Of a stretch of 64,000 bases of DNA, positions 7,201 through 25,873 are shown one piece after another. The stretch is from Desulfonatronospira thiodismutans ASO3-1 (GTDB lineage Bacteria; Desulfobacterota; Desulfovibrionia; Desulfovibrionales; Desulfonatronovibrionaceae). Numbering within the stretch: position 1 is the first letter of the stretch; every line of letters begins with the position of its first letter. The translations under genes were made by a program, and so were the position numbers. The notes under the pieces are model-generated. The model did not search any database and was not told where the DNA came from. It saw nothing but the letters and a program-made list of their open reading frames with translations. The stretch spans positions 1-64,000 of the forward strand of contig NZ_ACJN02000002.1 in assembly GCF_000174435.1 (NCBI RefSeq). The letters are read 5' to 3'.

Positions 7201-8939
7201 CTGCCACCGTCACCTTTTATGAAATCCATGCCCTCTATATCTGAGGCATCCGCAGTAACATCGGAGTTAATCTCAAGAAAATTGACATTTTCCAGCTCAA
7301 AGTTGCTGATATCAGCCACACCATAAACATGCAGGGTATTGGTGCCGCCTGCTCCGTTTATGACCTGAGCGGAACCACCTGCGTCTTCATCAAAATTATA
7401 ACCAACCAGGTCAGTCAACTGTGTCCCTAAAAGAGCAGTATGCTCAGGCTCGTTGGTTTTGCTGGCGCCTCGAAGGTCTCCCACAACCACAAAATGATCA
7501 TCCCCGTCTGTACCCATGAAGGTATTTACTTCATCGTTGCCGCGCACGGCAATATTGCCTGTGTTGTCCACAAAAACAGATTCCTCCACATCCAGACTCG
7601 AGACATGAGCCCATATAGCGCCGCCGGGTAACCCGTCCTCATGGTTGCCCCCGGACAGGGTCAAGTCATCAATGGTTATATTGTGATCAGGGGCATCCAG
7701 TTCGAATATGCGGGAGTGATCCTCCGCATCCAGGGTAACATCCCCGGTAATGGTCAAATCATGGTCCAGATCATAGCTCAGGGGACCATGCGACTCAAAA
7801 CCCTCTCCTCCAATATCTGCCTGAACATGAATGATCAGCTCTCCTTCCGGTCCCAATAAATCATCGCTGTCTTCCAAGGCTTTTTGCAATTCCTCATAAG
7901 TACTTACTTCGTATCCATCCGGGCTCACCTCAAAATCCAGTTCATATTCGGCGTCTGCTTGCCACCACCATTCACCGGTTTCATTGTTCACCCGTACATA
8001 ATATTCCCCGGGGGCCAGTTCTGTCTGGATTAAGTTTTTATCTGCCTTCACGGTTTGCAGAGAGTCCCCTTCATCACCCTCGCGCAAAAGATCCAGGGAA
8101 ACATTTCCCGTGGCTTTGAGTCCTACTTCGGCATCTACGTCCAGCTCAAATTTATAGAAATGGTCTTCACCTGCAGGGACTTCTTCCTGGAAAGTTTTGC
8201 CTTCTTCACTGACAGCCTCCCAGATATCTATAACCCTGGCTGCATCAGGGTCTTGGCCCGGCTCATCCGGGCGTCCCGCTTCAGCAGTGTTCAGGCCCAG
8301 GCTGTATTCGGTCTTATCCTGCCACCACCACCTGCTATCCTGGTGCTCCACTACTACCTTGTACTCGCCGGCATCAAGTGAATCTTTTTGAAGAAAATCT
8401 TCACCTTCCTGCAACTTTTCGCCCTGGCTATCTTTGAGCGTTAAAGAGACACTGCCGGTTGCTTCAATATCAATTGCCCGGGCTTCATCCAGTTCAAACT
8501 GGTAATAATGACTGCCATCCCCGGGTTGAAGGGTAGCCTCCCTGTCTTCTTCAAGGACAAGCTCAACTGCTTCATCAGGATCATCGGCAGGCAAGAAATC
8601 CAAAGGGGTAATATCCAGGTGGTATTCGGTCTTATCCTGCCACCACCAACTGCCGGCTTCATTTTCCACCTGGATGTAGTAACTCCTGCCTTCTTCAAGA
8701 CCCCCGTAACGTATCCCCTGATCTCCACTTGCCAGAGTATTACCATCTTCATCCTGAAGCTCTACAGAGACATCGCCCTTGGTTACATGGATCTCCATAG
8801 CGGATTGATCGGCATCAAACTGGTAGTAATGGTACTCTTGAGGCGAGAGATGAAAAGCAAAGGACTTTTCCTGGGTTAATTCAATCAATCTGGCCTCATC
8901 TCGAGTGCCACCAGGATAATTCGTACCATCAGAACTCAT
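4224..8939 (-). CDS. giant exported serine protease with PPC-like, beta-helix and RTX-like domains
   Basis: 1571 aa; the start at 8939 is preceded by AAAGGAGGT. Three pre-peptidase-C-like beta domains occupy about residues 12-335, each ending near WWWQ(D/A). A beta-helix follows (~340-475), then RTX-like Gly/Asp repeats (GGPGDDYLVGN near 683; GTQGDDQITGN near 1043). Between them a segment containing VAIIATDVDFHEG (~918) resembles a von Willebrand A/integrin-type domain, less certainly. The C-terminal ~240 residues form a trypsin-like (S1) protease with all three catalytic elements: His in MTNAHV (~1316), Asp in DTDMAIV (~1374) and Ser in GGASGSP (~1467). The tail VSIQGIRDEEMDDFYFAA fits a type I secretion signal, and there is no N-terminal signal peptide. 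The protease module is paralogous to that at 53294-55915. The protein is strongly acidic. Confidence 0.88.
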   Translation of the reverse strand: MSSDGTNYPGGTRDEARLIELTQEKSFAFHLSPQEYHYYQFDADQSAMEIHVTKGDVSVELQDEDGNTLASGDQGIRYGGLEEGRSYYIQVENEAGSWWWQDKTEYHLDITPLDFLPADDPDEAVELVLEEDREATLQPGDGSHYYQFELDEARAIDIEATGSVSLTLKDSQGEKLQEGEDFLQKDSLDAGEYKVVVEHQDSRWWWQDKTEYSLGLNTAEAGRPDEPGQDPDAARVIDIWEAVSEEGKTFQEEVPAGEDHFYKFELDVDAEVGLKATGNVSLDLLREGDEGDSLQTVKADKNLIQTELAPGEYYVRVNNETGEWWWQADAEYELDFEVSPDGYEVSTYEELQKALEDSDDLLGPEGELIIHVQADIGGEGFESHGPLSYDLDHDLTITGDVTLDAEDHSRIFELDAPDHNITIDDLTLSGGNHEDGLPGGAIWAHVSSLDVEESVFVDNTGNIAVRGNDEVNTFMGTDGDDHFVVVGDLRGASKTNEPEHTALLGTQLTDLVGYNFDEDAGGSAQVINGAGGTNTLHVYGVADISNFELENVNFLEINSDVTADASDIEGMDFIKGDGGSTLRVVSGEAVEIDLSEFSGVSRLHVAEGVSASISSLGGVRSLSGTGTIAAREGALDLREGMVVERGLGLKDADGADSDRSGVREVDEVRDSDRDADVIEGGPGDDYLVGNTSDQLFLPGGGSNVIEGGGGQNIYRLEEGSDNTIHASPSDDILDLSLISEGVALDLREGGTGEDEAVGITVVVGGEAAGRGALDVHLSQDLSGSFGTDVATLRSHVDPDGDDPSLMEQLREVQPNTNFGLSGFIDKPLQDVFDTTLGGGGGDTPEYPFEEKLDMTSNADRFVEAVFDDELMEVRWGGDAPESQLSALQQIGLRGNPYDDTYENSIGFRAGATKVAIIATDVDFHEGPIMNETLEQEIPPNDGTTTLRRWKGDEDNPPDVIGPPGTGEDFPTRTQVKEALDGADIYPVILLQNYDWYRDDYEELLDYIGRGSIVPLAGRTDDVTAAILEAIGTIDQPAIQTVVGTQGDDQITGNRLNNILWGYEGDNTLFGYRGTNVLIGSTEGYDTVLLEGEMEDYEMERVDLDAFPELPNGRLDVTLGGDTGIDYGYRFVSEYYGTHYVDPTVDLVDFKDGDSFSPFAGSAPEELAIQSIDIITAGEVGSSVQIDAIVEHTRDAEEVEFTISQNGANATVTVDLEKDTPSVEEVTGIFDSTLGFEPGAVYLEVRVVEGAEVESDTKTFGLYEDEKNREFQWQWADTDKPPFDMIGHTIVDHDGLDPGTLGTGTGFMISPRHIMTNAHVLSEEDWHSDLSELNSVDFYLGRNGGTITEEQDGNLLRGEHAYLQKDEWGDKWPDTDMAIVTLDREVDGHFDWFWNARGSERDLTGEPVFLSGYPSRDLDQGTDHIGNSTYFQWTSEGTVTDYIWGYDGYGEESGGLSFTQSLSSTGGASGSPIIYQNEDNDYQFVGSYVGHSGADPVAATLDPAAYDWALDIVQDYGYLTELDYVEGPRDMGLDKALNLNEGFETDVAEAVPAEVSIQGIRDEEMDDFYFAA

Positions 8940-9706: not shown

Positions 9707-12046
9707 TTAGACAAACTCACTCACTCCAAAGGTGTCATCTTCCTTTTCTACTCCCATAAACTGTATTTCCTGGATGGAGGGTTCAGAAGATTCAGTCCGG
9801 TTTTGTAAATCATCAGGCTCCAGTACCAGATCCACCAGGACATTTTCATCGGGCATGGTAAAATCCATTTCCACTTTTTCTTCAAATTTATCATGGTTAA
9901 AGGTAAGCAGATAATCTCCAGGTTCAAGCTGCATGGCATAACCACCGGAATCCCAGGTAGTAGTACCCTGTCCTCCAACCTGAATCTGGACATCTCCCAG
10001 ACCTTCTCCCGGCTTGTATGCCCCTGAATCATCAAGATCCTGAAACACAGTACCGGTTAGAAAAGGCGTATCACTGGTATGAGCAAATTTGACAGTTGAC
10101 ATGTATACAGTATTGTTAGCATAGTCTCCAAGCAGAGAGCCCACGCCGACTTCCATAAATGACTCGCTCATGGTGTTTTCACGATGACCAGATGAAAGAA
10201 ACAGGTTTTCATGCTTTTGAGCGATGAGTTCATCCATACCCTCTGTGTAGCCCGTTAAAGCCAGATTTTCACCCCAGCCCCAGGGCGGATCGGTATTGTA
10301 GTCCGTATCCTTTATGCGATCCTCCACGGAGCTGCCTCCTTCACCGGTGTGATCAAAAGTATCGTTATCCAGCATCCACTGTGAATGTTCTCTGGCTGCC
10401 TGCGTCAAATCCGGGTTGAAGGCCAGGGGCTGCTTCATGTCTGGAGATATTTCATCTTCAGGAGAAATGTCCTGATTGAGATCTATACCAAACAGATCGG
10501 CCTCGGCTTCCGGATCCAGTCTGGCCCGGTTTATAAGAGTTATCATGTACTGTTCGTAGTCTGTCGGAAAATGACTTTCGACTTCTTGCGTTGAAACCGA
10601 CAGGGGTTGCGTTTCTGCAGTCTTCTCTGTCGGAGTATGTTCCACTTTTATGGTCTGATCGTCATTACCAAGAGTAAGCTCTGTTCCCTGCGCCAAATCA
10701 ACCACCAGGCCGTAGTCTGCAAAATCTGAGAAGGAAACTACCTGATCCTCTGCCACCTGGTAGCTCTTGGTTACCTCCAGATCACTCAGATCCAGTTCCT
10801 GGCCTTCTATGTACTCCAGGTCCGGCTGGGTGGTTATTTCTATTCCAACGACAAAGTCCTCAATGGAAACATTTAGCGTGCTCTGCGATGAAACAATATC
10901 CGCATTGTCCGCATCAGCTGTCACGTCTATGGTGTATTCTCCGGCATCCTCTATCACCAGGTCTTCAAATGTAACCGTGGTCTCTGTTCCTTGGAGAGAG
11001 TCTACATCTATGGTCTCTTCTATCTCAGTACCAGCTATCGTCAGGTCCACAGTCAGGTTTTCAGTCTCAACATCTGCCAGTTCCTCTATATTCACATCTA
11101 CTGAGAATTCCTGGCCTGGCTCCGGCTCTTCCGGGGTAATGTTCATAAAATTAATCTTTAACTCGGCAGCAGACTCACCTTGCACTGTCCACTCCTGGCT
11201 GAGACCTTCCTGCAATGCACCATCAAAAAAAGGAGTAACCCCCAACTCTTTACCGCCACGTTCCGCCGTAAAATACTCATCCCCCAGCCTGTCTCCACGG
11301 ACCCAGCCGTTGCCCACAGCGGTGTCAACGGGCTCTTCGTCCACCTTGACCTGGAACCAGATAGTATCCGCAGTGACTCCGGTTGGAAGGTTGTAGCTGA
11401 ACATTTCGCTCAAAGGGGTATCTTCTTCCACGTAAGCTTTGTCTATGCTTAATTCATAATGCTCGGCCCTATCCACCATTTGAGTCTGAGCTTTATCTGT
11501 ATGCAGCTCGCCTGCGTAGAACGGAGTAACCTCCAATTCTTTACCGGCATGTTTTGCTGGAAAATACTCACCCCCCAGCCTGTCTCCACGGACCCAGCCA
11601 TTGCCCACAGTGGTGTCAATGGGCTCTCCCTCAACCTTGACCTGAAACCAGACCTCACTGCTGCTGACAGGGGTATCGAAGCTGAACATATCACTGAGCA
11701 AAGTGTCTTCAGAAACCACATCCTTTTCAATTGCCAGCTCAAAAGTAATTTCCTCGGGAAAACTCATTTCCGTTGAGTGCTCCCAGGAGTTCAGCTCATC
11801 AGTATAGGTCTGCACATACAAGGTGTTATGCCCTGCCTGGTCTACTCCAACGGTAAGATCATCAAGACCGTCTTTTGATACCCAGCCGTCGCCTACCATA
11901 GCTCCCCGGACTACCTCACCTTCATTATCCAGTTTACCGGTCCACAATCTGTACCAGGAAGTCTGTTCCTCATCCGTGTTGGCGAATAGATCTGTAAATG
12001 GTGTACCAAGGGTTATTTCTAAGTCTTGGTTAAACTGAATAGACAT
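9707..12046 (-). CDS. CAP (SCP/PR-1)-domain surface protein with WTG and CARDB-like domains
   Basis: 779 aa, GAAGGAG before the ATG. Residues 1-100 are a WTG repeat domain (SWYRLWTGKLDNEGEV ... GWVSKDGLDDL ... GHNTLYVQTY). Two shorter variants follow (~110-185 and ~195-275; WFQVKV ... GNGWVRGDRL). A CARDB-like beta-sandwich (~290-395) and an Ig-like segment (~395-490) come next. A CAP domain lies at ~500-670, with the conserved His in AREHSQWML, Glu in WGENLAL and His in GHRENTM. Then there is an SdrD-B-like domain (TGTVFQDLDDSGAYKPGEGL, ~675-745) and a tail with FMGVEKEDDTFGVSEFV. CAP domains in bacterial exoproteins often bind or cut surface partners; the specific role is unknown. The SdrD-B and CARDB modules are almost identical to those in the partial gene at the right edge of the window. 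Confidence 0.88.
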   Translation of the reverse strand: MSIQFNQDLEITLGTPFTDLFANTDEEQTSWYRLWTGKLDNEGEVVRGAMVGDGWVSKDGLDDLTVGVDQAGHNTLYVQTYTDELNSWEHSTEMSFPEEITFELAIEKDVVSEDTLLSDMFSFDTPVSSSEVWFQVKVEGEPIDTTVGNGWVRGDRLGGEYFPAKHAGKELEVTPFYAGELHTDKAQTQMVDRAEHYELSIDKAYVEEDTPLSEMFSYNLPTGVTADTIWFQVKVDEEPVDTAVGNGWVRGDRLGDEYFTAERGGKELGVTPFFDGALQEGLSQEWTVQGESAAELKINFMNITPEEPEPGQEFSVDVNIEELADVETENLTVDLTIAGTEIEETIDVDSLQGTETTVTFEDLVIEDAGEYTIDVTADADNADIVSSQSTLNVSIEDFVVGIEITTQPDLEYIEGQELDLSDLEVTKSYQVAEDQVVSFSDFADYGLVVDLAQGTELTLGNDDQTIKVEHTPTEKTAETQPLSVSTQEVESHFPTDYEQYMITLINRARLDPEAEADLFGIDLNQDISPEDEISPDMKQPLAFNPDLTQAAREHSQWMLDNDTFDHTGEGGSSVEDRIKDTDYNTDPPWGWGENLALTGYTEGMDELIAQKHENLFLSSGHRENTMSESFMEVGVGSLLGDYANNTVYMSTVKFAHTSDTPFLTGTVFQDLDDSGAYKPGEGLGDVQIQVGGQGTTTWDSGGYAMQLEPGDYLLTFNHDKFEEKVEMDFTMPDENVLVDLVLEPDDLQNRTESSEPSIQEIQFMGVEKEDDTFGVSEFV

Positions 12047-12688: not shown

Positions 12689-12922
12689 TCAACTAAGCTC
12701 TTCGATCTCTTCTGGCTCTTCCTCTCTGGCGGCCTTGAGCTTTTCATCCAGCTCCCTGAGACTGCTTGCCAGACCGTTCAGGAAGTTACTGGCTTGAGAA
12801 GCTGGAATAATCATGGTTCCGGCTTCCACCTGGGAATCATCTGCACCACGCTGGGTCAACATAATTCTCAGATTTCCATTGGACAGCGTCACTTTACTGA
12901 TTCCGTCTGCAAATACGTGCAT
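12689..12922 (-). CDS. small protein of unrecognised family (77 aa)
   Basis: It starts MHVFADGISKVTLSNGNLRI. The first ~45 residues look like short beta strands, and the rest is a charged helix (NFLNGLASSLRELDEKLKAA). The extreme C-terminus is acidic (EEPEEIEELS). It has no signal peptide or Cys, so it is likely cytoplasmic. Four more members and remnants lie in this window, always as the last gene behind a surface-protein or sapC/NYN operon. The layout (strands, then IIPASQAxxFxNxLxxSL) recalls DUF3467-type proteins, but I cannot confirm a relationship. It lies 23 bp downstream of a paralogue and is probably co-transcribed with it. Confidence 0.75.
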   Translation of the reverse strand: MHVFADGISKVTLSNGNLRIMLTQRGADDSQVEAGTMIIPASQASNFLNGLASSLRELDEKLKAAREEEPEEIEELS

Positions 12923-12945: not shown

Positions 12946-13164
12946 TTACTGCTGAGTCTGCTGCTCCCTGGCCTCTTTCAGCTTGCTATCCAATTCCTTG
13001 AGACTGTTCGCCAGACCGTTTACAAAGTTGTTGGCCTGACTCGCCGGAATAATCAGGGTTCCGGCCTCTACTGTTGACTCGTCTGCTCCACGCTGGGTCA
13101 GCTGAATACGCAGGTTGTTATTTGACAAAGTCACTTTACTGATTCCATCTGCAAATACGTGCAT
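12946..13164 (-). CDS. small protein of unrecognised family (72 aa)
   Basis: A paralogue of the neighbouring 77-aa protein, beginning MHVFADGISKVTLSNNNLRI and ending KLKEAREQQTQQ. The ATG is preceded by AAAGGAGAG. It follows the 605-aa surface-protein gene by 87 bp on the same strand, so the three genes probably form one operon. The tandem pair differs mainly at the C-terminus (acidic against Gln-rich). The function is not known. Confidence 0.78.
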   Translation of the reverse strand: MHVFADGISKVTLSNNNLRIQLTQRGADESTVEAGTLIIPASQANNFVNGLANSLKELDSKLKEAREQQTQQ

Positions 13165-13251: not shown

Positions 13252-15069
13252 TCAACTCATTTCCATTTCATTCCGGGCATTATCATCAGAGACACCCAGG
13301 GTATGAATGTGGTCATCAGAGGCAGCCTCGGGGGCTTTGACATCGAAGGTCCTGAAATTGTCAACAGTATCGACATTGTCCGCATCTGCAACTATCTTCA
13401 GTGTATAATACGGATGTTGTCCGGGATCATAGTCGTATTCAGAGGTCCAGCTGAGTTCGAACTCATGGGAATCGCCCGGCTTCATATCTCCAACAGTATA
13501 CCCTTCAACAGACACGTCGCTTCTAGCGCCTCCTGTAATTACCAGGTTCAGTTCAACGTCCTCAGCATTTTCTCTATAGCCCTCAAGGGCAGCAAGTTTG
13601 CCGGACACTGTCAATTCTTCGCCCACTTCCAGGCCATGATTGGTATTAAATTTTTTACCGTTACTTGTCCATTCCAGCTCCTGGAACCGGAGCCCGGGCT
13701 CTTGGTGTTCCACCGTAAAATGCTCACTGATCTGAACTGATCGTGCATTGTCTGCGCTGGATGTTACTTCAGCAGTGTAGTCTCCTGGCTCTTCAATATA
13801 CCAGGCATAATTAAAGTCTACAGACCTGCCCGCAGGAATGAAATCATCATCTTCACTTATGGTAAACTCATGCTCCACCTCACCATCGGCATCAAGGATT
13901 ACCAGGCTGAAATCAACATCCTCAGCATCAGCCAAACCATCGTTTAAAGCCGCCAGCGTCCCGGTTACATTCAGCTTCTCCCCGGCTGCCACCTCCACCG
14001 GCACCGTACAAAAATCTATACCCTGGCATTTCCAGCGCAAGCCCTGCAGCTCAAGCTCAGCATTAAGCAGATCTATTGTAAAAGGTTTGTCGGGATCATT
14101 AAATTGCATGTCTCTAATTCCATGTTCTTCACTCCAGGCTTTAACGCCCAGTGAGTTATGATCGACATGAGCAGCGGTAACCTTCAGGGTCTCCAGGTCC
14201 GATGCCTCGATCCAGCCTCTTCCTGCCGGGGTGTCAACAAAAGAACCCTTAATAAATTCTCCTTCTGCATCAATCTTGCCTGTCCACAATTGATACCATA
14301 CTACGCTTTCATCCGGATCAGTGAACAACTCATCAAAAGTGGTGACACCAGCGGTAACATTCAAGTCTGTGTTGAATTCTATGTCAGGATTGGCTTGCAT
14401 GACTTGAGACGGAAAACTATGCAGAACTGCTTCTGGAAATTCTGGGGAATCAAAATACCGGCTCTCTTGCCAGTCATTGTGCTGCCAGTCACCTTTCCCC
14501 TGTTCAGGGCTGTAAGACTGGACGTAAACAGTGTTGTGCCCGTCTTGATCCGCAGTGAACAGGAGATTGTTCAGGTCTTCAGCCCGGACCCAGCCGCCGC
14601 CTTCTTCAGTATCCACCAGAGAACCCTGGACCACACCCTCCTCGTCCATCTCACCGGTCCATATCTGGTACCAGGTTGAAGTGTCGTCTTCATCGGTGAA
14701 GAGATCGGCAAAAGAGGTTTCCAGGGATATATCTACGTCAGTATGAAATTCGATTTCCGGGGGACCAGGAAAATCAAAATAATCGCCATCCTTCCAGTCA
14801 TTGTGATGCCAGTCCCCTGTACCGGTTTCATCTTCCCAGCCCCGGACATACATGGCGTTATGGTTGATCTGATCATAACCGACCCGTACATCGGCAAGAT
14901 CCTCAATGGACAGCCTGCCAAGAAAATTACCATCAACAACTTCGCCATCTTCCTGGATATGACCGGTCCACACCTCATAATGGGTATAGAGTTCTTCAGT
15001 GTCCGTAAACAATTCGTTGTACCGGGTGTCTACGGAGATATCAAGATGGGTATGAAATTCGAATGACAT
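13252..15069 (-). CDS. surface protein with three WTG domains and two CARDB-like domains
   Basis: 605 aa, with AAGGAGGG before the ATG. Residues ~1-100, ~105-210 and ~215-325 are three WTG domains. The second is the clearest: LFTD, then WYQIWTGEMDEEGVVQGS, GGGWVRAEDL and GHNTVYVQSY. Two beta-sandwich domains (~340-455 and ~460-580) of CARDB type follow; each contains a GEELxVSGxLAAL-like strand and a DADNxxTVD or SADNARSVQ end. The C-terminal tail reads IHTLGVSDDNARNEMEMS, the weakest version of the shared tail. There is no N-terminal signal peptide and the protein is acidic. It is probably an exported adhesin-like or matrix protein; the ligand is unknown. It is followed by two small-protein genes. 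Confidence 0.82.
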   Translation of the reverse strand: MSFEFHTHLDISVDTRYNELFTDTEELYTHYEVWTGHIQEDGEVVDGNFLGRLSIEDLADVRVGYDQINHNAMYVRGWEDETGTGDWHHNDWKDGDYFDFPGPPEIEFHTDVDISLETSFADLFTDEDDTSTWYQIWTGEMDEEGVVQGSLVDTEEGGGWVRAEDLNNLLFTADQDGHNTVYVQSYSPEQGKGDWQHNDWQESRYFDSPEFPEAVLHSFPSQVMQANPDIEFNTDLNVTAGVTTFDELFTDPDESVVWYQLWTGKIDAEGEFIKGSFVDTPAGRGWIEASDLETLKVTAAHVDHNSLGVKAWSEEHGIRDMQFNDPDKPFTIDLLNAELELQGLRWKCQGIDFCTVPVEVAAGEKLNVTGTLAALNDGLADAEDVDFSLVILDADGEVEHEFTISEDDDFIPAGRSVDFNYAWYIEEPGDYTAEVTSSADNARSVQISEHFTVEHQEPGLRFQELEWTSNGKKFNTNHGLEVGEELTVSGKLAALEGYRENAEDVELNLVITGGARSDVSVEGYTVGDMKPGDSHEFELSWTSEYDYDPGQHPYYTLKIVADADNVDTVDNFRTFDVKAPEAASDDHIHTLGVSDDNARNEMEMS

Positions 15070-15587: not shown

Positions 15588-15800
15588 CTATTGCTGCTGC
15601 TCCCTGGCCTCTTTCAGCTTACTATCCAGCTCCTTCAGACTGTTCGCCAGACCATTCATAAAGTTATTAGCCTGACTCGCCGGAATAATCAGGGTTCCGG
15701 CTTCAACTGTGGAATCATCTGCTCCACGCTGGGTCAGCATAATCCTCAGGTTGCCATTGGACAAAGTCACTTTACTGATTCCGTCTGCAAATACGTGCAT
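15588..15800 (-). CDS. small protein of unrecognised family (70 aa), cassette copy A
   Basis: MHVFADGISKVTLSNGNLRI start, C-terminal helix LANSLKELDSKLKEAREQQQ. One base separates its ATG from the stop of the NYN gene, and the AAGGAGAG ribosome-binding site lies inside the end of that gene, so expression is coupled. Its protein is identical to the copy at 34466. Location behind a NYN nuclease and a SapC-family gene suggests it serves the same process, but no function is known. Confidence 0.8.
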   Translation of the reverse strand: MHVFADGISKVTLSNGNLRIMLTQRGADDSTVEAGTLIIPASQANNFMNGLANSLKELDSKLKEAREQQQ

Positions 15801-15801
15801 C

Positions 15802-16443
15802 TTAACTCTCCTTATTGTTTAATTGGGTACTTATAAAATCCGCCTGCTCCGAAAGCTCTATTGAGACAGGAGCATGCATATTATCCAGGCATACCTGCAC
15901 CCCTTCTTGCCGAACCATCTCCATTGCCGGAACCAGGTCTGTTCTGTCAGTGATCAGAACAAACATATCCCCGGCTTTTCTGGCTGCAAGGGTGATCATA
16001 TCCAGGGCCATCTTTACGCTTATCTGGGTAGTCTCGCTTCCCGGTCGGATATCGCTGTCTGACAGGTCATCCACAGTTATCTCCTTCTTCAAAAGCGGAG
16101 ACACCTTGGAGCCGACAACATTCCAGTCCCTGCCGTTCCACTCCATGCTTCCAAGCCTCAAACAGAAATTTGGTGCATGGCGCAGGCCCTCGAACAGCTG
16201 GTGTCTTAGCCTTGCACTCTCCAGCCTGGAAAAGTCTATCTCCTTACCATTCAAGGGAGATGTTCCCCTGGCCTGCAAGGGCTTACAGTCATAATAATAA
16301 ATACGCACCAGGTAGTCGTTTGGTCTCAGGTGCTTCTGGCAGTATTCCCGGATCTCTCTTGGCTTGTACAGAAAGTGGTTTCTCTCCAGCACCCGGCGGC
16401 GCATGAACATGCCGTCTGTGAAAATGATTACTTTGCGTGTCAT
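15802..16443 (-). CDS. NYN-domain (PIN-like, LabA/DUF88-type) protein
   Basis: 213 aa. It starts MTRKVIIFTDGMFMRRRVL; the first strand with an Asp (FTDG) is typical of the NYN domain. Two later acidic motifs, KMALDM and ITDRTDLVPAMEMVRQEG, correspond to the conserved metal-site aspartates and the G-x-V-x-V strand of LabA-like proteins. NYN domains are predicted Mg-dependent RNases. The start overlaps the sapC stop (ATGA) and the stop abuts the small gene, a tightly coupled three-gene operon. Its target is unknown. Confidence 0.8.
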   Translation of the reverse strand: MTRKVIIFTDGMFMRRRVLERNHFLYKPREIREYCQKHLRPNDYLVRIYYYDCKPLQARGTSPLNGKEIDFSRLESARLRHQLFEGLRHAPNFCLRLGSMEWNGRDWNVVGSKVSPLLKKEITVDDLSDSDIRPGSETTQISVKMALDMITLAARKAGDMFVLITDRTDLVPAMEMVRQEGVQVCLDNMHAPVSIELSEQADFISTQLNNKES

Positions 16444-17150
16444 ATTTTTATCTTCTCAAAATCCAGTTCTTCCATACTCTCCCAATCCGGCTCCTTATCC
16501 TGTTCAGCCAGTTTCTTAAGCCTTGCCATCTGAGTCAAGGAATAAAGCTGCCCGTACATAACCTTCAATCCGCCGGTATCCCTGAGCTTCACAAAGGCTT
16601 CTCCACTCAGGTCTTTCAACTTGGCTTCGCTCACTTTATACAGGCCACCGTACCCTTCCCAGGGCTCGATCACACCAAACTCAGCAAGCGCAGCACAGGC
16701 CCTGTCAGTTATAGCCCTCTCCCTGGCAATCTTTTCCAGAAAGTCTATTATCTGCTGCATCTTCTGGGTGGGCTTACCCTCTTCTCCGAACATTTGCTCA
16801 CCATCTGGGCCATCCGTAATCAGATCAGAATTCTCGTCTACGCAGACTACTTGTTTTCCTTCCTGAGATTCCGCTAGGTAAAAGGGATGGCCTCTCAGAT
16901 ATGCCGGGATATAGCTGGTCTGCCACTTGCCTTCCTGGGTGACAAACAGGTTCTGTTCTGGTTTTAAGCCCATCACAGCACTCAGTACGTACTTGTTCCT
17001 GGAATAGGTAAAGGCTATTGGAAATGCCGGTACTGCTCTGGGTAATTCAGAGATAACCATGGGAACAGTGGTGCGGGTTTTGGCGTGTTGGTAGTTCTTT
17101 GCCGGATGGAAACTTTTGCCAGCGTGTGTTGTTTTGGATAAGGGTTGCAT
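16440..17150 (-). CDS. SapC-family protein
   Basis: 236 aa. The N-terminal pattern is that of the SapC family (PF07277-type): a VP ... ELPRAVPAFPIAF block, NLFVTQEGKWQTSYIPAYLR and HPFYLAESQEG. The family is named after a gene of the Campylobacter fetus S-layer locus, and members often sit near S-layer or type I secretion genes; its biochemical role is not established. There is no signal peptide. The C-terminal helix-rich part ends MEELDFEKIKI. It is the first gene of the sapC-NYN-small operon; its stop overlaps the next start. The second copy in the window (35318-36027) is frameshifted, and a different SapC subfamily is present as fragments at 26.9-29.7 kb. Confidence 0.82.
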   Translation of the reverse strand: MQPLSKTTHAGKSFHPAKNYQHAKTRTTVPMVISELPRAVPAFPIAFTYSRNKYVLSAVMGLKPEQNLFVTQEGKWQTSYIPAYLRGHPFYLAESQEGKQVVCVDENSDLITDGPDGEQMFGEEGKPTQKMQQIIDFLEKIARERAITDRACAALAEFGVIEPWEGYGGLYKVSEAKLKDLSGEAFVKLRDTGGLKVMYGQLYSLTQMARLKKLAEQDKEPDWESMEELDFEKIKI

Positions 17151-17228: not shown

Positions 17229-17444
17229 CTACTTAAAAACCCACTCAGGTTCAGGGACTTCCACTTTTTCCATCTCAAAACCTGGCTCGAAAGGGACCTC
17301 TGTTTCCAGCATGTCCCTTGCCCCTTCTCTCAAGGACTCAAGCAATTCTTCCCTGGTTCTCTCTTGAGCGTTTACGCCAGGCAGATCAACCAGCCAACCT
17401 ATCCACCAGTCATCGGTCCTCTTTATTACTGCTCTGTAATGCAT
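17229..17444 (-). CDS. hicB: HicB-family antitoxin
   Basis: 71 aa, start MHYRAVIKRTDDWWIGWLVD; the strand-strand-helix pattern with WWIGWLVDLPGVNAQ and then TREELLESLREGARDML is the partial RNase-H-like fold of HicB antitoxins. It is a short form without an evident C-terminal DNA-binding domain. It starts 3 bp after the hicA stop, in the usual toxin-first order of hicAB, and should bind and neutralise HicA. It lies between a terminator and the toxin. Confidence 0.85.
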   Translation of the reverse strand: MHYRAVIKRTDDWWIGWLVDLPGVNAQERTREELLESLREGARDMLETEVPFEPGFEMEKVEVPEPEWVFK

Positions 17445-17447
17445 TAT

Positions 17448-17630
17448 CTACCTCACAAAAGGAATATTCAGATCTTTACAAATTTTTCGGGCCAAATCAT
17501 CTACTATCTCGTTATGCCTTGGGACCTGAGTCTTCTTTCGATCCAGCTGATATATACTGTGTTTGCTTCCCTCTCGCAAAAGATAAGCGCCATGTACCTG
17601 CAAATGTTTGATCAACTGATGTCTTTTCAT
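17448..17630 (-). CDS. hicA: HicA-family mRNA interferase toxin
   Basis: 60 aa from the ATG at 17630 (MKRHQLIKHLQVHGAYLLRE). An ATG ten codons upstream is possible but would lengthen the protein beyond the family norm. The dsRBD-like fold is indicated by GSKHSIYQL, whose His is the conserved catalytic residue, and by VPRHNEIVDDLARKICKDL. HicA cleaves mRNA when free of HicB. The gene pair may stabilise this accessory region. Confidence 0.85.
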   Translation of the reverse strand: MKRHQLIKHLQVHGAYLLREGSKHSIYQLDRKKTQVPRHNEIVDDLARKICKDLNIPFVR

Positions 17631-17675
17631 TAACTTACATTTTATGCATTCTTCCGGCAATTGGCAAGGAGCCGC

Positions 17676-17915: not shown

Positions 17916-18836
17916 TCAAGTCTGCCCCAGGCGCTTCATAGAGTACAAACCCTCGACACCGCCAACCGGAGTAAATTTCCTTGTATCCTTGGACCCCAGT
18001 AAATGCTTGACCTGGTCAAAGACTTCCTGAACAAAATCCTTTCCGCCGATAACCCCGGAATCAGTAAAATACCGGCATCTGTATCTGAAGCGCTCTACCC
18101 TGGATATTTTGTAGCCTTTTTTCCTGGCTTTTTCCACAACCTTTTGATCAATGGTCTTGCCTTTGCCGGCGTCTACTGCTCCGGTCTCGTAAACAAACTG
18201 CCTGTACTTGCGGACAATCTCTTTGGGGTCCAGCTCGTTCCATTCCTTGAGGCCAAAATCAATGTCCAGCAGGCCGTCTTTATTGCCGGTCTGGGTATGG
18301 TAGCCAAGTGAGCTCCAGCGGTAATTCTCCGGTTTCTTCACAATACCTGCACGGATAGGGTTTAAATCCACATAGGCCAGCAAATTAACAAGAGTACTGC
18401 CTTCCTGGACAATCATACTCTTAAACCGGCCACCCCAGAAAAAACCCTGCCGCCTGTGCTTCTTATTATAATACCGGGTAAAATTCTGCTTGATGTCCTT
18501 CACATAGGCCCCAAGGCTGCAAAGCCTCTTCTTGACCTCAGCCATCCGGTCAGTAGGCATCTCGACCTTGTCACCATAATAGTCCTGCCATCTCTTGATG
18601 ATATCTGAATTGGAAATCTCATCCTCAGGGTGCATCCGGGCTACCAGGTGGAAATGATTCCCCATAACTGCGAAACCCAGCACGTCAACAAAGTAAAGCC
18701 TGCTCAGTCTTTTGATAAGCCCCAACAGATAATCCTTGTCAGTGTCTTTAATGGGCAGACCTGACAGAGCAGTACGGGATATGACGTGGTAGACGGTGGC
18801 TTGGTCACTACGGATAAAACGGGCTATGCGGGGCAT
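17916..18836 (-). CDS. REP-associated tyrosine transposase (RAYT), copy 2
   Basis: 306 aa, start MPRIARFIRSDQATVYHVIS with AAAGGAGGT upstream. The HUH motif is GNHFHLVA and the catalytic Tyr lies in FTRYYNKKHRRQGFFWGGRF. The C-terminal half is nearly identical to that of copy 1 (KHLLGSKDTRKFTPVGGVEG), whereas the N-terminal half differs, so the gene looks mosaic. GACTGTCCCC sits at 18913-18922, 77 bp upstream of the start. It should cut single-stranded REP DNA. Confidence 0.92.
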   Translation of the reverse strand: MPRIARFIRSDQATVYHVISRTALSGLPIKDTDKDYLLGLIKRLSRLYFVDVLGFAVMGNHFHLVARMHPEDEISNSDIIKRWQDYYGDKVEMPTDRMAEVKKRLCSLGAYVKDIKQNFTRYYNKKHRRQGFFWGGRFKSMIVQEGSTLVNLLAYVDLNPIRAGIVKKPENYRWSSLGYHTQTGNKDGLLDIDFGLKEWNELDPKEIVRKYRQFVYETGAVDAGKGKTIDQKVVEKARKKGYKISRVERFRYRCRYFTDSGVIGGKDFVQEVFDQVKHLLGSKDTRKFTPVGGVEGLYSMKRLGQT

Positions 18837-18922
18837 GAATTACCTCCTTTAAGGCTGGTGGTTGAGCTGTTGGAAGAATGGATAGCATAAGCTGAAATAA
18901 AACGCAAGAAGAGACTGTCCCC

Positions 18923-19441
18923 TTCTTCCTTTGGCCCCGGCAGAACCAGATGCAAGCATGGCCATATTCCGGAAAATCGAACCCGAATGGCTCTTGCTGT
19001 TCCATCTGGCCATAATGCCGTTGGTGAACCGGCTGAATCTGGATGTTTCTGGGGTTGTTGGCTGCATGATTTTATTTTCTGCACGTTTCGCGTCAAGCGC
19101 GTTTCGTGCAATTAAATCCCACTTTTTGCACGTTTCGCGTCAAACGCAAATCGTGCAATTTCATCCAATATTTTCCTTCCCCGCAATCCACCGCTAAAAA
19201 CTGTCCCCGGCGCCACCACAGCCACATTCCGCACAAACCTGCTCTTCCAGGTGCGGTTTATGAATCCCTGCATCCCGTTCAAGGACCAGGGCTTTTCAGT
19301 AGTCACCGGCTCCGCCATCCCATCATCCTAATTTTATAAAACCGACTTGCTGCACGTTTCGCGTCAAACGCGTTTCGTGCAATTAAATCCCACCTTTTGC
19401 ACGTTTCGGGCCTGCCCAGTGAACAAAGAGAACTTTGGAAC
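18923..19441. repeat. gene-free stretch with GCACG-type hairpins
   Basis: Hairpins of the form GCACG-TTT-CGCGT-CAA-ACGCG-TTT-CGTGC occur at 19081-19109, 19128-19156 (partly degraded) and 19352-19380, with a half-unit at 19400. AATTAAATCCCAC follows the first and third. These are a second REP family, next to the RAYT at 17916 and the IS200-like element at 19442. A 68-aa minus ORF at 19112-19318 overlaps one hairpin and is not supported as a gene. Confidence 0.7.
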
Positions 19442-20377
19442 TTTGGGGGTCGGACCTAACCATCATACTTAAATATCAGGATAAATGTCCCAAAACAGCC
19501 TATTTTCAGACCTTAGAAGCCCCATTTCACCCCCAAAAACATCATTGTAAGCCGATACAGGTTCTTTCAGTGCATATGATCCGGTCTTGTCTACTTCATG
19601 AACCCTGCGGCCGCAAGCTTTTCCGCCGAGCAATTCCTTGATCTTTTCTACAAAAACCTTACAGCCCACGGCAACACTTTCAGTCCAGCCTGGTTGCCTG
19701 GGAGTACGCTCATCTACTGCTGCCTGGACCCATCCAGAGTATACCTTGGATAAATCATCGTCTATATCCAGCAGTCTTTTCAAAAGATCCCTGCTGATAA
19801 TTCGGTATCTTTGCTGCGGCTTGACTATTTCAGGGTATCCCCCATGGCTCCACTCTTTGGGATGCTTAACCACTCTGGCCCTGACCATGTTCATGTCTAT
19901 GTAGACCAGGCACTTTACCAGGTGCTCATCAACATCCACTGCTGTAGCGTGATACCTGTCTTCCCAGAAAGCACCTTTCCGCTTTTTTCTTTGATTGTAT
20001 TCCTGGCCGGTTCTGCCAGCCACCAATTGTAAGGACCTGGGTATAACATCTTTGTCTTCATGGCCGTGTACCAGCAAGTGAATATGATTCGAGGTAACCG
20101 TATAGTTCAATACCTGTAGCCCGTATCTCTTTTTCGCTTCAAATAACCATTTAATCCAAGTTGATCGGTCCTTGGCAAATTTCAGCAGGAATTCCTTTTT
20201 ATGGCATCTATGGGTTATATGCCACAAATGATCAGGCAAAAAATATCTGTTGGCTCTGGGCATATTTGCTTACAACTGGTTTTTGATTATTAAAAAGGGC
20301 ATTCTAAGGCCAATTTTGGGCTCTGTAAAGGCCATTTATTCAATCAATTTAGAACTTTAATTAGGTCCGACCCCAAA
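19442..20377. mobile_element. IS200-like element with inverted ends
   Basis: The left end TTTGGGGGTCGGACCTAA (19442-19459) and right end TTAGGTCCGACCCCAAA (20361-20377) are near-perfect inverted copies and bracket a single Y1 transposase gene. True IS200 elements use subterminal hairpins, so these ends may instead be flanking REP-type sites of a RAYT. Confidence 0.75.
19469..20263 (-). CDS. Y1 (HUH) transposase of the IS200/RAYT type
   Basis: 264 aa, start MPRANRYFLPDHLWHITHRC. It has the HUH motif in SNHIHLLVHG and a candidate catalytic Tyr in EYNQRKKRKGAFWEDRYHAT, then YIDMNMVRARVVKHPKEWSH, the conserved block of Y1 transposases. It differs from the six 304-306-aa RAYTs of this window in sequence and lacks their C-terminal KFTPVGGVEG segment. 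It lies within a pair of inverted GGTCGGACCTAA ends. It probably mobilises this element through single-stranded DNA. Confidence 0.88.
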   Translation of the reverse strand: MPRANRYFLPDHLWHITHRCHKKEFLLKFAKDRSTWIKWLFEAKKRYGLQVLNYTVTSNHIHLLVHGHEDKDVIPRSLQLVAGRTGQEYNQRKKRKGAFWEDRYHATAVDVDEHLVKCLVYIDMNMVRARVVKHPKEWSHGGYPEIVKPQQRYRIISRDLLKRLLDIDDDLSKVYSGWVQAAVDERTPRQPGWTESVAVGCKVFVEKIKELLGGKACGRRVHEVDKTGSYALKEPVSAYNDVFGGEMGLLRSENRLFWDIYPDI

Positions 20378-20623
20378 CCTAGTAGATCTACTTTAGGCAT
20401 GGTACTGCTCCTTTTTTGTAGGTTATAAATTGGTTTCCCCAATTCTTATAACGTAAAGGAGGACAGTTTTTTGAATTGACAGGGCAGTACAGTGAAAAGC
20501 TAAGCCGTATAAGGCCTATTTTGGGCTTTCAGGGGTGCTTTTTGATGTCAGGCATGCGAAGATGAATAAAAGCCAGCAGGATGGGCGTGAGGGGCCTTAA
20601 ATTGGAAATGGGTGTTTGGGCAT
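20378..20623. other. gene-free stretch
   Basis: No gene or clear repeat is visible between the right end of the IS200-like element and the terminator at 20624. Confidence 0.5.
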
Positions 20624-20655
20624 AAAAAAAAGCCTACCAGCATAAGCCAGTAGGC
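20624..20655 (-). terminator. Rho-independent terminator, minus strand
   Basis: Arms GCCTAC (20632-20637) and GTAGGC (20650-20655) with an A8 run at 20624-20631, giving T8 on the minus strand. It lies about 60 bp downstream of the glycosyltransferase remnant. Confidence 0.8.
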
Positions 20656-20716
20656 AATAAATAAAAAAAGCCAGCGTACTTCACCCCGCCAAGCCGTTTA
20701 ATCTGCGGCACTGAGG

Positions 20717-21046
20717 CTAACTGGTTTCAACCATGGCCTTTTCCAACCCGGCTGTAAACCCGTCAATATCCATAAGCACAGACCTCTGCATTCTGCTTCG
20801 CATGGTGCGTCTGAGATCAGCCAGTCTATCTGTATCAGCAGCCAGTTCAGCGGCAATCCGCACATACTCATCCTCACTCCCAGCCCCGAACTCACTAAGC
20901 CCAACAGTCCCAAGAAAAGCATAGCTCTGCCTGCTTACAACCCTGTCCATAGGCATGGTAACTACAGGTACACCCATCCACAGGGCCTCGCAGCTGGTAA
21001 GACCGCCGGTAAAGGGGAAGGGATCTAACAACTTAAAGAATCTGTC
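20717..21046 (-). pseudogene. C-terminal remnant of a SPINDLY/OGT-type (GT41) glycosyltransferase
   Basis: The minus strand reads DRFFKLLDPFPFTGGLTSCE, then ALWMGVPVVTMPMDRVVSRQ and YVRIAAELAADTDRLADLRR. This is the UDP-GlcNAc-binding C-terminal part of GT41 enzymes (DxFPxxGxTTxxEALWMGVPVV). The TPR region and the first half of the catalytic domain are missing; homology stops about 60 bp before the left end of the recombinase module. A complete protein would glycosylate Ser/Thr residues. The remnant was most likely cut by insertion of that module. Confidence 0.8.
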
Positions 21047-21107
21047 CCTTATGTTGCGAGTTCTCGTAACAGGCTGATATGCATGTAAATAAACCGGATT
21101 TGGCGGG

Positions 21108-21146
21108 GTCTTCATATCTTCATGGATACCAGGGGGATATGAAGAC
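21108..21146. repeat. inverted repeat near left end of RIT-like element
   Basis: GTCTTCATATC (21108-21118) and GATATGAAGAC (21136-21146) form an 11-bp inverted repeat with a 17-bp loop, directly next to a GGCGGGGT octamer (21102-21109). It may be a recombinase-binding site. Confidence 0.6.
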
Positions 21147-21233
21147 ATGCAGCATAATTATTTTGGGCTGGCAACATAATTTTTGGCCTTGGAATATAGT
21201 ACCACTTGTTTGGACTCAGCCTGCATATGGGCC

Positions 21234-22250
21234 TTACAGGCTGTCCAGCCAGTCCAGAGTCTCCTGCTCTTTTTCCCAGTCCAGAAGTTCATCCAGTTTG
21301 GGGTCCTGGGTCTGGTTCTGGGTGTATTCAATGAACTTCTGCTGCAGCTCTCGTTTGCGATTCAGACTCAGCTTGAGATAGACCATGGTGGATTGCAGGT
21401 TTTCATGTCCCAGGTGGTTTTTGATGTCTGTCAGGCTGAAGCCGGTCCCGAGCATGTTGATGGCACATGAATGCCTGAAGCAATGCACCGGATTCAATCC
21501 CTGGAATCGGTTTTCTTCAAACACCAGGCTCAGATATTTCCTGCATAACCGGTAGATGCCGTTTCTGGTAAAGCCTTGCCTGCGCTGATTTAAAAACAGG
21601 GTGTTCTGATGCAAGGGTTTGGGCCTGGGGCGGTATTTCTGGATATACATGGACATGAGCTGGACTGTCTTGGGCCAGAGCTCGATTTGGCGGTAGCGGT
21701 TGCCCTTGCCCAGGATGGCCAGGGTTTTCTTGTGCGGGTCAAAGTAGTCCAGACGTAGCGAGGCTGATTCCTCGGCCCTGGCCCCGGAGTTGTAGAGCAG
21801 GTGGATGATGGTATAATCCCGGAAAGCTCCGCTTTTCTTGAGATTTATACTATCCAGGACCAGCAAAACCTCTTCATGGGTGAGAAAGGCAGCCAGTTTT
21901 TTGGGGAAGCGCTTCTGAGGGATGGAGATAATCCGGTCTGCCAGCAGTTTATGTTCGGGATAGAGAAAACGGATCATTCTGGCCAGGGACTTGAATACCG
22001 CCAGTCTGTGGCCTCTGGTGCGAGCACTGTTATTTCTGCCGCTCTCCAGATGGTCTAAAAAATCCAGGATGAGCTGGGTGCTTAAATGCTCAATCTCCAG
22101 GGAGTTGATATCCCGGCCAAGGGTTTTGGAGGCAAAGGGCAAAAACAGGCTGAAGGTATGGCGGTAGGCCAGGATGGTGTTGGAGCTGACGCCCTTGGTT
22201 CTTGGCAGGTACTGATCAAAGAAGGTATGCAGACAGGAGCCCAGATTCAT
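21234..22250 (-). CDS. tyrosine recombinase, third of the trio
   Basis: 338 aa. The catalytic elements are an Arg in NSGARAEESASLRL, a Lys in ILGKGNRYRQIEL, His-x-x-Arg in HCFRHSCAINML, a His in LGHENLQSTM and the nucleophile Tyr in MVYLKLSL. The start ATG overlaps the stop of the previous recombinase (4 bp) with GGAGG five bases upstream. An N-terminal SAM-like core-binding domain spans about residues 5-100. It acts with its two partners in site-specific recombination. Confidence 0.9.
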   Translation of the reverse strand: MNLGSCLHTFFDQYLPRTKGVSSNTILAYRHTFSLFLPFASKTLGRDINSLEIEHLSTQLILDFLDHLESGRNNSARTRGHRLAVFKSLARMIRFLYPEHKLLADRIISIPQKRFPKKLAAFLTHEEVLLVLDSINLKKSGAFRDYTIIHLLYNSGARAEESASLRLDYFDPHKKTLAILGKGNRYRQIELWPKTVQLMSMYIQKYRPRPKPLHQNTLFLNQRRQGFTRNGIYRLCRKYLSLVFEENRFQGLNPVHCFRHSCAINMLGTGFSLTDIKNHLGHENLQSTMVYLKLSLNRKRELQQKFIEYTQNQTQDPKLDELLDWEKEQETLDWLDSL

Positions 22251-23215
22251 ATGTCCTCCAGTCGCGAGATGGCAAAGTCCACAAATCCCTGGCGCTTCTC
22301 GGCGTCCATGACCTTGAGATACAGGGCGGTGTAGCGGTACTTGCTGTGGCCCATATACGCGGATAGTACTGGCAGAACAGCCTGGGGGTCCCGGCCCCGG
22401 TCCCGGGCCGCCTTGAGGGTGTTGACTGCAAAGGAATGCCTCAGGCTGTGCGGAGTGGGATGGCCAAAGACCATGTTGGCTATAATTCTTCTTGGGGCAT
22501 GGATTCCCGTTTCCCGCACAGCCCTGTGAAAGACGGGATACACCTGATTGGTTCTCAGGGCGTTTTTAAATCCTGGCAGGAGATAAGGGCTTGTGCAGCA
22601 CAGGGCGTCTCGAAGACTCAGGAAGTTATCCAGTTCTTTTTGGGCCTCCCAAGGAATGGGAATCAAGCGGTCCTTATGGAACTTGGTCTTTTGGATATAG
22701 ATAGTGCCTTGCACAGGATCAAAATGTTCAAGCCCCAGGTTGAGTGGTTCGGACATGCGCAGCCCGCACCTGGCCTGCAACATTAGAGCTATGTATATGC
22801 CCATATCCACCAGGAAGCACTTTTCCCTGCTGCGCCGGATCTGACTTTGCACCCCCTGCAGGAGCTGCTCCACCTGCTCCGGGGAGAAAATGAAAGGGAT
22901 AAAGGCGTTTTCAGTCTTGGCCGGGAGATCCTGGACCGGATTATGTTCACAGCAGCCTGTCCGGTGCAGATAAGCAAAGAAGTTGCGTGTGGCCTGAATG
23001 ACATTGTTGACGGTTGCAGGCGAGCCCTTGATTCCATCACGGAAGCCCAGAAAAAAGGCAGGCGTGAGGTCTTCCCACCCCCGGGCATTATCCCGGACAT
23101 AATAATCCAGTGCTCTCAGCTGGTTTGCCAGGCTCTTGTTCACATATCCAAGTTCCTTGCGGTACTGGATAAAATCATTTAGATGTCCGGCCAGAAAGCT
23201 CTCAAACTTTTTCAT
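22247..23215 (-). CDS. tyrosine recombinase, second of the trio
   Basis: 322 aa from the ATG at 23215 (MKKFESFLAGHLNDFIQYRK); a GTG five codons earlier is possible. Catalytic residues are seen in QARCGLRMSEPLNL, HSLRHSFAVNTL, MGHSKYRYTALYLKV. The start lies 14 bp inside the end of the preceding recombinase gene, so the three are translated together. The N-terminal domain is of the SAM-like type. All active-site elements are intact. Confidence 0.9.
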   Translation of the reverse strand: MKKFESFLAGHLNDFIQYRKELGYVNKSLANQLRALDYYVRDNARGWEDLTPAFFLGFRDGIKGSPATVNNVIQATRNFFAYLHRTGCCEHNPVQDLPAKTENAFIPFIFSPEQVEQLLQGVQSQIRRSREKCFLVDMGIYIALMLQARCGLRMSEPLNLGLEHFDPVQGTIYIQKTKFHKDRLIPIPWEAQKELDNFLSLRDALCCTSPYLLPGFKNALRTNQVYPVFHRAVRETGIHAPRRIIANMVFGHPTPHSLRHSFAVNTLKAARDRGRDPQAVLPVLSAYMGHSKYRYTALYLKVMDAEKRQGFVDFAISRLEDI

Positions 23216-24386
23216 TGAACAATACCTCACGCATCAGTCTGGTGTGTACATGCAGATATCTCTTGCTGGTCTTGATGATGTCATGACCCAGCATCTCTTT
23301 GATTTCAAAGATGGACGCCTCCGCCTGCAACAGGTTCTGGGCATAGGTATGGCGCAGCCAGTAGGCAGATCCTTTGATCCCGGCCCGGCGGAAGCAGGCG
23401 CTGATATTCTGGCTCACGGTCAAAGGAGTGAGTGGTCCGTAAGGTGTCCTGGTATTGCAAAGAAGAAACCTGTGCCCGGGATCCATTGGTCTATTCCAGG
23501 CAAGGTATGCGGCCAGAGCCCTGAGTGCCCCCTGAGGCAGGGGAAGTTTGGCTGGAGAAGAGTTTTTTCTGTCCGGCAGGTATATCAGCTTGTCCCGGAA
23601 TAAAATGTCATCCAGGGTCACCCGGCAGATTTCCCCCGGCCGAAGCCCCAGGGAGTAGGCCAGATGGATCATGGCATAAGACCGCAGTCCCCCGGGGCGA
23701 TCCTTGTCAATGCTTTGAAACAGGGTCTTTATTTGTTCCAAAGTAAGAAACCTGGGTGGTCTGCTCTGGGCATACACCGGCGGCCCCTGGATCAAAGCGC
23801 TCAAATCTTTCTTCAGGATTTGTCTTTCCAGGTACAGGTAGCGTAAAAAACCTCTAAGGCCTGATCGTTCATGTATTCTGGTTTCAGGGGCGTATTTCCT
23901 GTTTCTCTCAGCCAGAAAAGCATCCATATGTAAGACATCCAGGTCTTTAAGCTCCATGCCCTGGTTTTGCAGGTAGTCATTAAGTGCGGATAGAGTCCCC
24001 CGGACCCGGTAGATCTGAACATGTCCCACCTGGCGGGTTTGGGTGTAGAATTGGAGATACTCTTCATAAAGCCTGGGCAGCTGGGCTCTTTGGAGCTTGC
24101 TCCTGCCTCTGCCTTCAGGCAAAGCACCCGGCGGCAAGCAGATTATGCCATTCTGGTGCAGGTAGCGCATGAATCCGCGCAGGACAAACCCGGCATACTT
24201 AACCTGGACATGGTCCTTAAATGCCTGCAAGGTATCCCGGGCAAAGGTACGCTCCCAGGGGATGCTATTTAGCACCACAAAGTCCAGCAGCCGGTTTAGA
24301 ATTTGGCTGTGTTGGGCCATTGTCCATGGAGCATACCCGGCATTGTTCATCCATTCCAGGTAGTCCTGGATCTGCCTGTCCAGCAT
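23202..24386 (-). CDS. tyrosine recombinase, first of the trio
   Basis: 394 aa. The active site is visible as LGLRPGEICRVTLDD (Arg), YWLRHTYAQNLL (His/Arg), LGHDIIKTSKRYLHV (His, Tyr). The N-terminal half is longer than in its partners and holds two core-binding-like segments (~5-90 and ~125-200). It begins 5 bp after the CHC2 gene stop. With the two following genes it makes the recombinase trio. Confidence 0.9.
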   Translation of the reverse strand: MLDRQIQDYLEWMNNAGYAPWTMAQHSQILNRLLDFVVLNSIPWERTFARDTLQAFKDHVQVKYAGFVLRGFMRYLHQNGIICLPPGALPEGRGRSKLQRAQLPRLYEEYLQFYTQTRQVGHVQIYRVRGTLSALNDYLQNQGMELKDLDVLHMDAFLAERNRKYAPETRIHERSGLRGFLRYLYLERQILKKDLSALIQGPPVYAQSRPPRFLTLEQIKTLFQSIDKDRPGGLRSYAMIHLAYSLGLRPGEICRVTLDDILFRDKLIYLPDRKNSSPAKLPLPQGALRALAAYLAWNRPMDPGHRFLLCNTRTPYGPLTPLTVSQNISACFRRAGIKGSAYWLRHTYAQNLLQAEASIFEIKEMLGHDIIKTSKRYLHVHTRLMREVLFNEKV

Positions 24387-24391
24387 AACCT

Positions 24392-24688: not shown

Positions 24689-24790
24689 GATTTCCTCCTC
24701 GAGATAAGTGTCAGTGATTAAGATTTGACTTCCCTATCACCACCCCGGCAGTGGAGGCTATCGAGTCCTACCTTTGCAATCAGGACCAAA

Positions 24791-25237: not shown

Positions 25238-25271
25238 ACAACCTCCAGGAGCAGTTACTCCAAGAGGTTGT
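25238..25271 (-). promoter_or_regulatory. hairpin sequestering the RBS of the Cys-rich gene
   Basis: ACAACCTC (25238-25245) pairs with GAGGTTGT (25264-25271). On the minus-strand transcript the 3' arm contains GGAGGTTGT, the Shine-Dalgarno sequence, which is immediately followed by the ATG at 25237. The structure would block ribosome binding, so entry into the element's operon may be controlled at translation. Confidence 0.55.
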
Positions 25272-25308
25272 AGTTTTGGAAAGAAGAAAAATGAATGAAA
25301 AGAATTCA

Positions 25309-25516: not shown

Positions 25517-25539
25517 ATAGCGGGATACTGGCAACATAA

Positions 25540-25872: not shown

Positions 25873-25873
25873 A

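Follow-up and report, generated by a model that had tools for sequence, protein, structure and literature searches.

Introduction

SapC takes its name from a surface-layer locus. In Campylobacter fetus, this conserved locus combines the gene for SapC with transport genes for surface-layer proteins, which themselves come in several variable copies (PMC4943207, PMC3887049), and SapDEF is described as a type I system (PMC6374484). In the sections that we consulted, these three papers on surface layers assign no molecular role to SapC. Nucleases with the NYN fold are also relevant here. In the NYN nuclease of B. fragilis, D13, D118, and D143 are reported to be conserved without exception, and the D13A variant failed to cleave (PMC11346440, consulted in part). 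In MARF1, the aspartate patch is formed by D358, D426, D427, and D452, and mutating both D426 and D427 greatly lowered the RNase activity (PMC6294520, also consulted in part).

We analyzed a stretch of 64,000 nucleotides from Desulfonatronospira thiodismutans ASO3-1 (positions 1 to 64,000 of contig NZ_ACJN02000002.1; hereafter, the window) in which a SapC-family gene is joined to an NYN gene and to a gene for a protein of 70 amino acids. A search of the open-access literature found no published report of this trio. The trio has SapC and a suggested association with surface proteins in common with the sapCDEF surface-layer locus of C. fetus, as that locus is described in the sections consulted. 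However, it lacks sapDEF-like genes, has the NYN and 70-amino-acid genes in addition, and is a cassette with multiple copies.

Results

Three coupled genes on the minus strand

The three genes are coupled and all lie on the minus strand, and the coordinates given in the first-pass annotation are exact. The first gene (16440–17150) encodes a SapC-family protein of 236 amino acids that matches PF07277 across the entire profile (positions 1–220 of 220; E = 1.2e-57; 195.5 bits versus a cut-off of 28.9). Its stop codon overlaps the start codon of the second gene in an ATGA (16440–16443). The second gene (15802–16443) encodes a protein of 213 amino acids with the NYN fold (PF01936, E = 1.2e-7; 32.8 bits versus a curated cut-off of 24.2). 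A single base (15801) lies between the NYN stop codon and the ATG of the third gene (15588–15800), which encodes the 70-amino-acid protein (the small protein), and a ribosome-site-like AAGGAG for this gene sits within the NYN reading frame. Thus, the overlapping start and stop codons and the 1-bp gap that had been noticed at first pass were confirmed. This gene order is not due to chance, as the same order recurs at other places in the genome (see below).

SapC had no match in NCBIfam or, by sequence, in the PDB, and an AF2 model from three window sequences was not used (pLDDT of 46). Just upstream of SapC, at 17229–17660 on the minus strand, there is a HicA-like gene (PF07927, E = 1.3e-7) along with a HicB/UPF0150-like gene whose match was weak (E = 0.029, below the cut-off); the copy of the trio on contig C3 has this stretch as well. 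The next gene downstream of the trio (13252–15069, minus strand) encodes an acidic, exoprotein-like protein of 605 amino acids with CARDB. The trio neither contains nor adjoins genes for type I secretion, which a SapC of the C. fetus type would have in its operon. The genome’s ABC-ABC-HlyD-OEP set is at C2:110–118 kb, beside another copy of the small gene.

Replaced aspartates in the NYN protein

The first-pass annotation described the middle protein as a predicted RNase. The protein does retain the first aspartate (D10), but residues 142 and 167 are serine and arginine in each of the genome’s four copies, whereas both are aspartate in 17 of the 17 relatives that cover these positions. The cluster of conserved catalytic aspartates that is typical of NYN/PIN ribonucleases is therefore incomplete, and with both residues replaced in every copy, the prediction of RNase activity is not supported. 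The 17 relatives comprise 11 genome loci, G081, L029, and four phage-borne proteins; seven of them are looser relatives (L118–L124), and in two of these seven, L120 and L122, the open frame is truncated or offset. The match in G090 stops before positions 142 and 167, so it is outside this set. Four of 15 phage records entered the alignment, and the other 11, like the relatives on plasmids, were left out of it.

The spacing from residue 142 to residue 167 is 25 residues, which is the same as from D118 to D143 in the NYN nuclease of B. fragilis, as numbered in the part of the report that we consulted. We mapped these two positions to the published catalytic residues by motif and spacing, and not by structural alignment, because sequence searches of the PDB gave no NYN structure to align. 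(The NYN protein had one chance-level match, with E = 0.55; a LabA-like relative had none; and an NYN profile had nine scattered matches, none of which is NYN by name and the best of which, with E = 0.005, is a de novo design.)

Despite these losses, the four NYN copies are under purifying selection, and so are the SapC copies. For the six pairs of NYN copies, dN/dS was 0.05–0.12 (dS of 0.08–0.41). Given both the selection and the lost aspartates, it seems that a non-cleaving role has been kept. The protein is probably not an RNase; selection keeps it, though scarcely in the capacity of an ordinary nuclease.

Almost all of the NYN protein can be aligned with relatives in phages and in other Desulfobacterota (29%–40% identity to eight aligned relatives), and tblastn found relatives on plasmids as well. 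Among three annotated phage-borne relatives, two adjoin regulator genes and one adjoins a terminase gene. A fragment that is 85% identical is present in a contig from a Desulfonatronospira metagenome assembly. In its alignment over nearly the whole length and its first aspartate, the protein resembles the LabA/VPA0982-type NYN proteins, including those borne by phages, but it has serine and arginine at two aspartates that are invariant in its relatives, and it is coupled to SapC.

The small protein and control at the RNA level

The small protein has no family above the cut-off in Pfam and no match in NCBIfam or PADLOC. An alignment of its family includes 21 sequences and has 16 invariant positions. 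With a threshold of E = 0.001, the family was found in 10 of 100 relatives (in one case as a fragment). It was also found in 10 of another 347 genomes from the class (the same 10 genomes) and, in a sample of 394 further genomes from the phylum, in 5. Neither viral contigs nor plasmids contained a relative. Overall, this is a patchy, unnamed family.

Another family, of about 172–209 amino acids, recurs in the vicinity of the small gene or of SapC, and the two members that we scanned had no match in Pfam. Its members are at L024:9250–9768, L056:5071–5595, L057:5364–5897, L058:6547–7137, L090:12837–13451, L091:825–1385, and L093:1086–1715. A comparison of the profiles of the small family and this neighboring family (A1 versus A2) found no relation.

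AF2 predicts, from three window copies, that the small protein forms three strands followed by a long helix (mean pLDDT of 88). Borrelia Pur-alpha was the best match for this model in both structural comparisons, with weak scores (Foldseek E = 0.026 and probability 1.00; VIA Z = 6.1 and rmsd = 4.5 across 61 aligned residues), and was followed by COMMD domains (Z = 5.3–5.6) and PC4. The predicted arrangement of sheet plus helix is similar to that of the PUR domain, but the scores are below the level at which a relation would be safe, and the small protein is three-stranded, while PUR domains usually have four strands. Nor was there sequence similarity in the PDB, where a profile of the small family had one chance-level match (E = 0.7).

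The first-pass annotation suggested that the linkage reflects control of surface-protein production at the RNA level. This could only operate by binding without cleavage: the degraded NYN protein and the Pur-like small protein would bind the long mRNAs of exoproteins and tune their translation or stability. The tight coupling of the genes, the basic NYN protein (pI of 8.3) with its fold that acts on nucleic acids, and the fold matches of the small protein to Pur-alpha and, at lower scores, to PC4, both of which bind nucleic acids, are consistent with this view; but the fold match is weak, with COMMD domains scoring almost as high, the small protein is not basic (pI of 5.6), and the regions upstream of 12 giant genes share no element except among three recent duplicates. 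We regard such control as possible but rather unlikely.

Copies within the genome

In this genome of 4.1 Mb, there are four copies of the NYN protein, ten matches to PF07277 (counting fragments), and nine intact copies of the small protein, plus fragments. The order of the trio is found at four places: 17150–15588 and 36105–34466 in the window, C3:16.0–17.6 kb, and C1:455–457 kb, where a nucleotidyltransferase gene lies between SapC and NYN. The description of the trio as part of a duplicated segment is thus borne out.

The second trio in the window is also on the minus strand. Its small gene (34466–34678) encodes an identical protein (100%), and its NYN gene (34680–35321) encodes a protein that is 98% identical and has the same substitutions to serine and arginine, but its SapC gene (35396–36105) is split by a frameshift (the N-terminal part is at 35494–36105 and the match to the C-terminal part is at 35396–35530). 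Directly upstream of this trio is an acidic exoprotein-like gene of 3,984 amino acids (36203–48157, minus strand). The window contains three further copies of the small gene, all on the minus strand. Two of these (12946–13164, whose protein is 94% identical, and 12689–12922, at 86%–88%) share an interval between two acidic exoprotein genes, and a broken copy (3464–3677) is downstream of an exoprotein gene of 1,571 amino acids. On contig C3, at 35 and 39 kb, broken copies of the small gene (L022:7185–7390 and 11276–11506) are located upstream of, and between, two exoprotein-like genes that share an identical upstream stretch of 134 bases.

At C5:75.7 kb, the small gene comes immediately after SapC, with a clean junction and no NYN gene between the two. 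The DNA match between C5 and the window ends at the end of SapC and restarts 16 bases before the small gene, which implies that the NYN gene is an optional insert. On C3, the SapC–NYN side matches the first window copy at 97% identity for 3.3 kb, as far as a point within the small gene, and the small gene and the gene after it match a locus of G002, starting 16 bases upstream of the small gene’s start. (SapC was not found in G002.) From these match boundaries on C3 and C5, the small gene looks like an anchor at which cassettes recombine.

Other repeats in the window include five related frames of about 305 amino acids (17916–30637, minus strand), which are direct repeats that are 83%–87% identical to a reference copy over 300 nucleotides. 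We judged them to be transposase-like by eye, and we take them to be probably REP-associated (RAYT). Between these repeated frames, there is a diverged fragment of SapC (28118–28507, minus strand) that is 33% identical to the SapC of the trio. There is also a direct repeat of 62 nucleotides (19076–19137 and 19347–19408, 95% alike), with a third copy at 19123 (69%).

Gene order in other genomes

Among 101 genomes that we searched with both proteins, SapC and the NYN protein were found together only in D. thiodismutans itself. Other genomes with NYN matches (G006, in which the first 74 residues match, G081, and G090) had no match to SapC, and the four best relatives of the NYN protein from the phylum (L128–L131) had neither SapC nor the small gene nearby, according to blastp. 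Adjacent SapC and small genes were found in G054, which belongs to another family, as well as on C5 of this genome. The small gene and SapC are present in 10 and 12 of 100 relatives, respectively, and they co-occur in four (P = 0.017; this count takes in the fragments in G015 and G031). The first-pass annotation had staked its reading on the order not being unique to the duplicated segment: across the 101 genomes, the pairing of SapC with NYN is indeed unique to it, but the pairing of SapC with the small gene is not.

The trio might also be chiefly a passenger, spread by repeats, transposase-like genes, and gene conversion, with no joint function for the three products. The several broken small genes, the optional NYN gene, the patchy distribution, and the shared region upstream of the first window copy and the C3 copy, in which a transposase-like gene and the HicAB-like pair are common to both (97% over 3.3 kb), would fit with this. 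We consider it unlikely, given that the NYN and SapC copies are under purifying selection and that SapC and the small gene are adjacent in another family (G054).

Secretion genes and giant exoproteins near SapC and the small gene

In some genomes, the neighbors of these genes are involved in secretion. The small gene follows an ABC-ABC-HlyD-OEP set in G006, which is listed under the same genus (64 bases 3′ of the OEP gene), and at C2:118 kb in D. thiodismutans (about 0.8 kb 3′ of the OEP gene); OEP was identified with Pfam, and ABC and HlyD were recognized by eye. In G227, the small gene comes after the gene for a VWA/DUF4214 protein of 4,079 amino acids. In G413, it comes after a ShlB/FhaC gene (identified with Pfam) that itself comes after a frame of at least 2,452 amino acids, and in G430 it comes after a gene that is very similar to the ShlB/FhaC gene of G413, in a similar arrangement. 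In G045, SapC, the small gene, and a type I transporter set are all within about 14 kb. In G074 and G029, SapC adjoins genes of a type I transporter; in G025, G047, G029, and G065, it is beside exoprotein-like genes.

We saw no secretion neighbor of the small gene in G002, G003, G005, G010, G017, G273, or G466, or at the second place in G006, and some of these contigs are short. The neighbors are a gene of the 172-amino-acid family in G005, NfeD-stomatin-like genes in G010 and G017, and SGNH-hydrolase-like genes in G273 and G466. At L108:8529–9507 and L111:8347–9322, in two genomes from another family, the small gene is directly 3′ of an SGNH-hydrolase-like gene (TesA-like, by eye).

As a strict rule for proximity, we required a frame of at least 400 amino acids with a pI under 4.4 within 3 kb. 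In D. thiodismutans, there is an exoprotein-like gene within 3 kb of 9 of the 12 small-gene places, but three of the 12 are broken, and the places are not independent because the copies are duplicates. Under the strict rule, the relatives had such a gene near the small gene at 4 of 17 places and near SapC at 4 of 20, versus 6 of 64 and 6 of 74 for control genes. Neither result is significant (for the small gene, Fisher P = 0.21 with the first control set and 0.08 with both sets pooled; for SapC, P = 0.12 with both sets pooled). Several fragments did not serve as anchors: for the small gene, two short ones on C5 (at 62.4 and 105 kb) and those in G015 and at G003:C195, G006:C90, and G006:C354, and for SapC, the one in G031.

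Because strict proximity is not significant in the relatives, the link to secretion is suggestive only; it is strongest in specific operons and is not proven statistically. The connection to surface proteins that was proposed at first pass is supported in part, in that very acidic giant genes adjoin SapC and the small gene here, and secretion genes do so in some relatives, but it does not extend to the strict proximity test. Two exoprotein-like genes in the window (4224–8939 and 53294–56038, minus strand) encode trypsin-like domains, and the former also encodes RTX repeats and an integrin-beta-type VWA domain.

Discussion

There is perhaps an even chance that the three genes form a mobile accessory cassette, present in multiple copies, for the giant secreted surface proteins of this genome, with a catalytically degraded NYN protein. 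The middle protein looks like an RNA-cutting enzyme whose active site is missing key residues, and yet it is preserved, so the trio more likely assists in the production of surface proteins than serves as a nuclease, toxin, or defense system. A toxin or defense role, which was also raised in the first-pass annotation, is unlikely for the trio, and it is very improbable that the NYN protein is an active RNase in such a module: beyond the name of the NYN family and weak PADLOC matches (to an NYN model, E = 3e-6, and to HEC-09, E = 8.5e-4), one can cite phage regulators and, by eye, a HipA-like gene next to NYN relatives and the HicA-like gene that is upstream of, but outside, the trio, but both aspartates are lost in all four copies, none of the three genes was identified by PADLOC as a known partner in defense or in a toxin-antitoxin pair (there was no match for SapC or for the small protein), and the PADLOC match of the HicB-like gene is at chance level.

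If the trio is a helper cassette for surface proteins, then SapC and the small protein, neither of which has an obvious signal peptide (judged by eye), would act in the cytoplasm, where they would maintain the long chains of exoproteins, or the mRNAs for them, in a state fit for export. The NYN protein, whose type is also found on phages and plasmids, would have been captured and then kept for binding rather than cutting, and the copies would have spread by recombination, with the small gene as the homologous anchor. SecB is known to help the type I secretion of HasA. As a cytoplasmic factor by which a protein destined for export stays unfolded, SecB may offer a parallel in concept (PMC4257090, consulted in part), but this is by analogy only, as the trio’s proteins have no sequence relation or detected fold relation to SecB.

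A more specific and quite speculative proposal is that a disarmed and domesticated phage-type NYN protein and a Pur-like protein of 70 amino acids form a non-cleaving cytoplasmic factor that acts on the messages or nascent chains of giant exoproteins, and that the 70-amino-acid family serves type I and two-partner secretion in several lineages of Desulfobacterota. A small partner protein whose gene is found repeatedly next to genes for type I secretion, two-partner secretion, and giant exoproteins, together with an optional pseudo-nuclease that is under selection, would provide a defined set of parts with which to study the production and export of bacterial proteins that are thousands of residues long.
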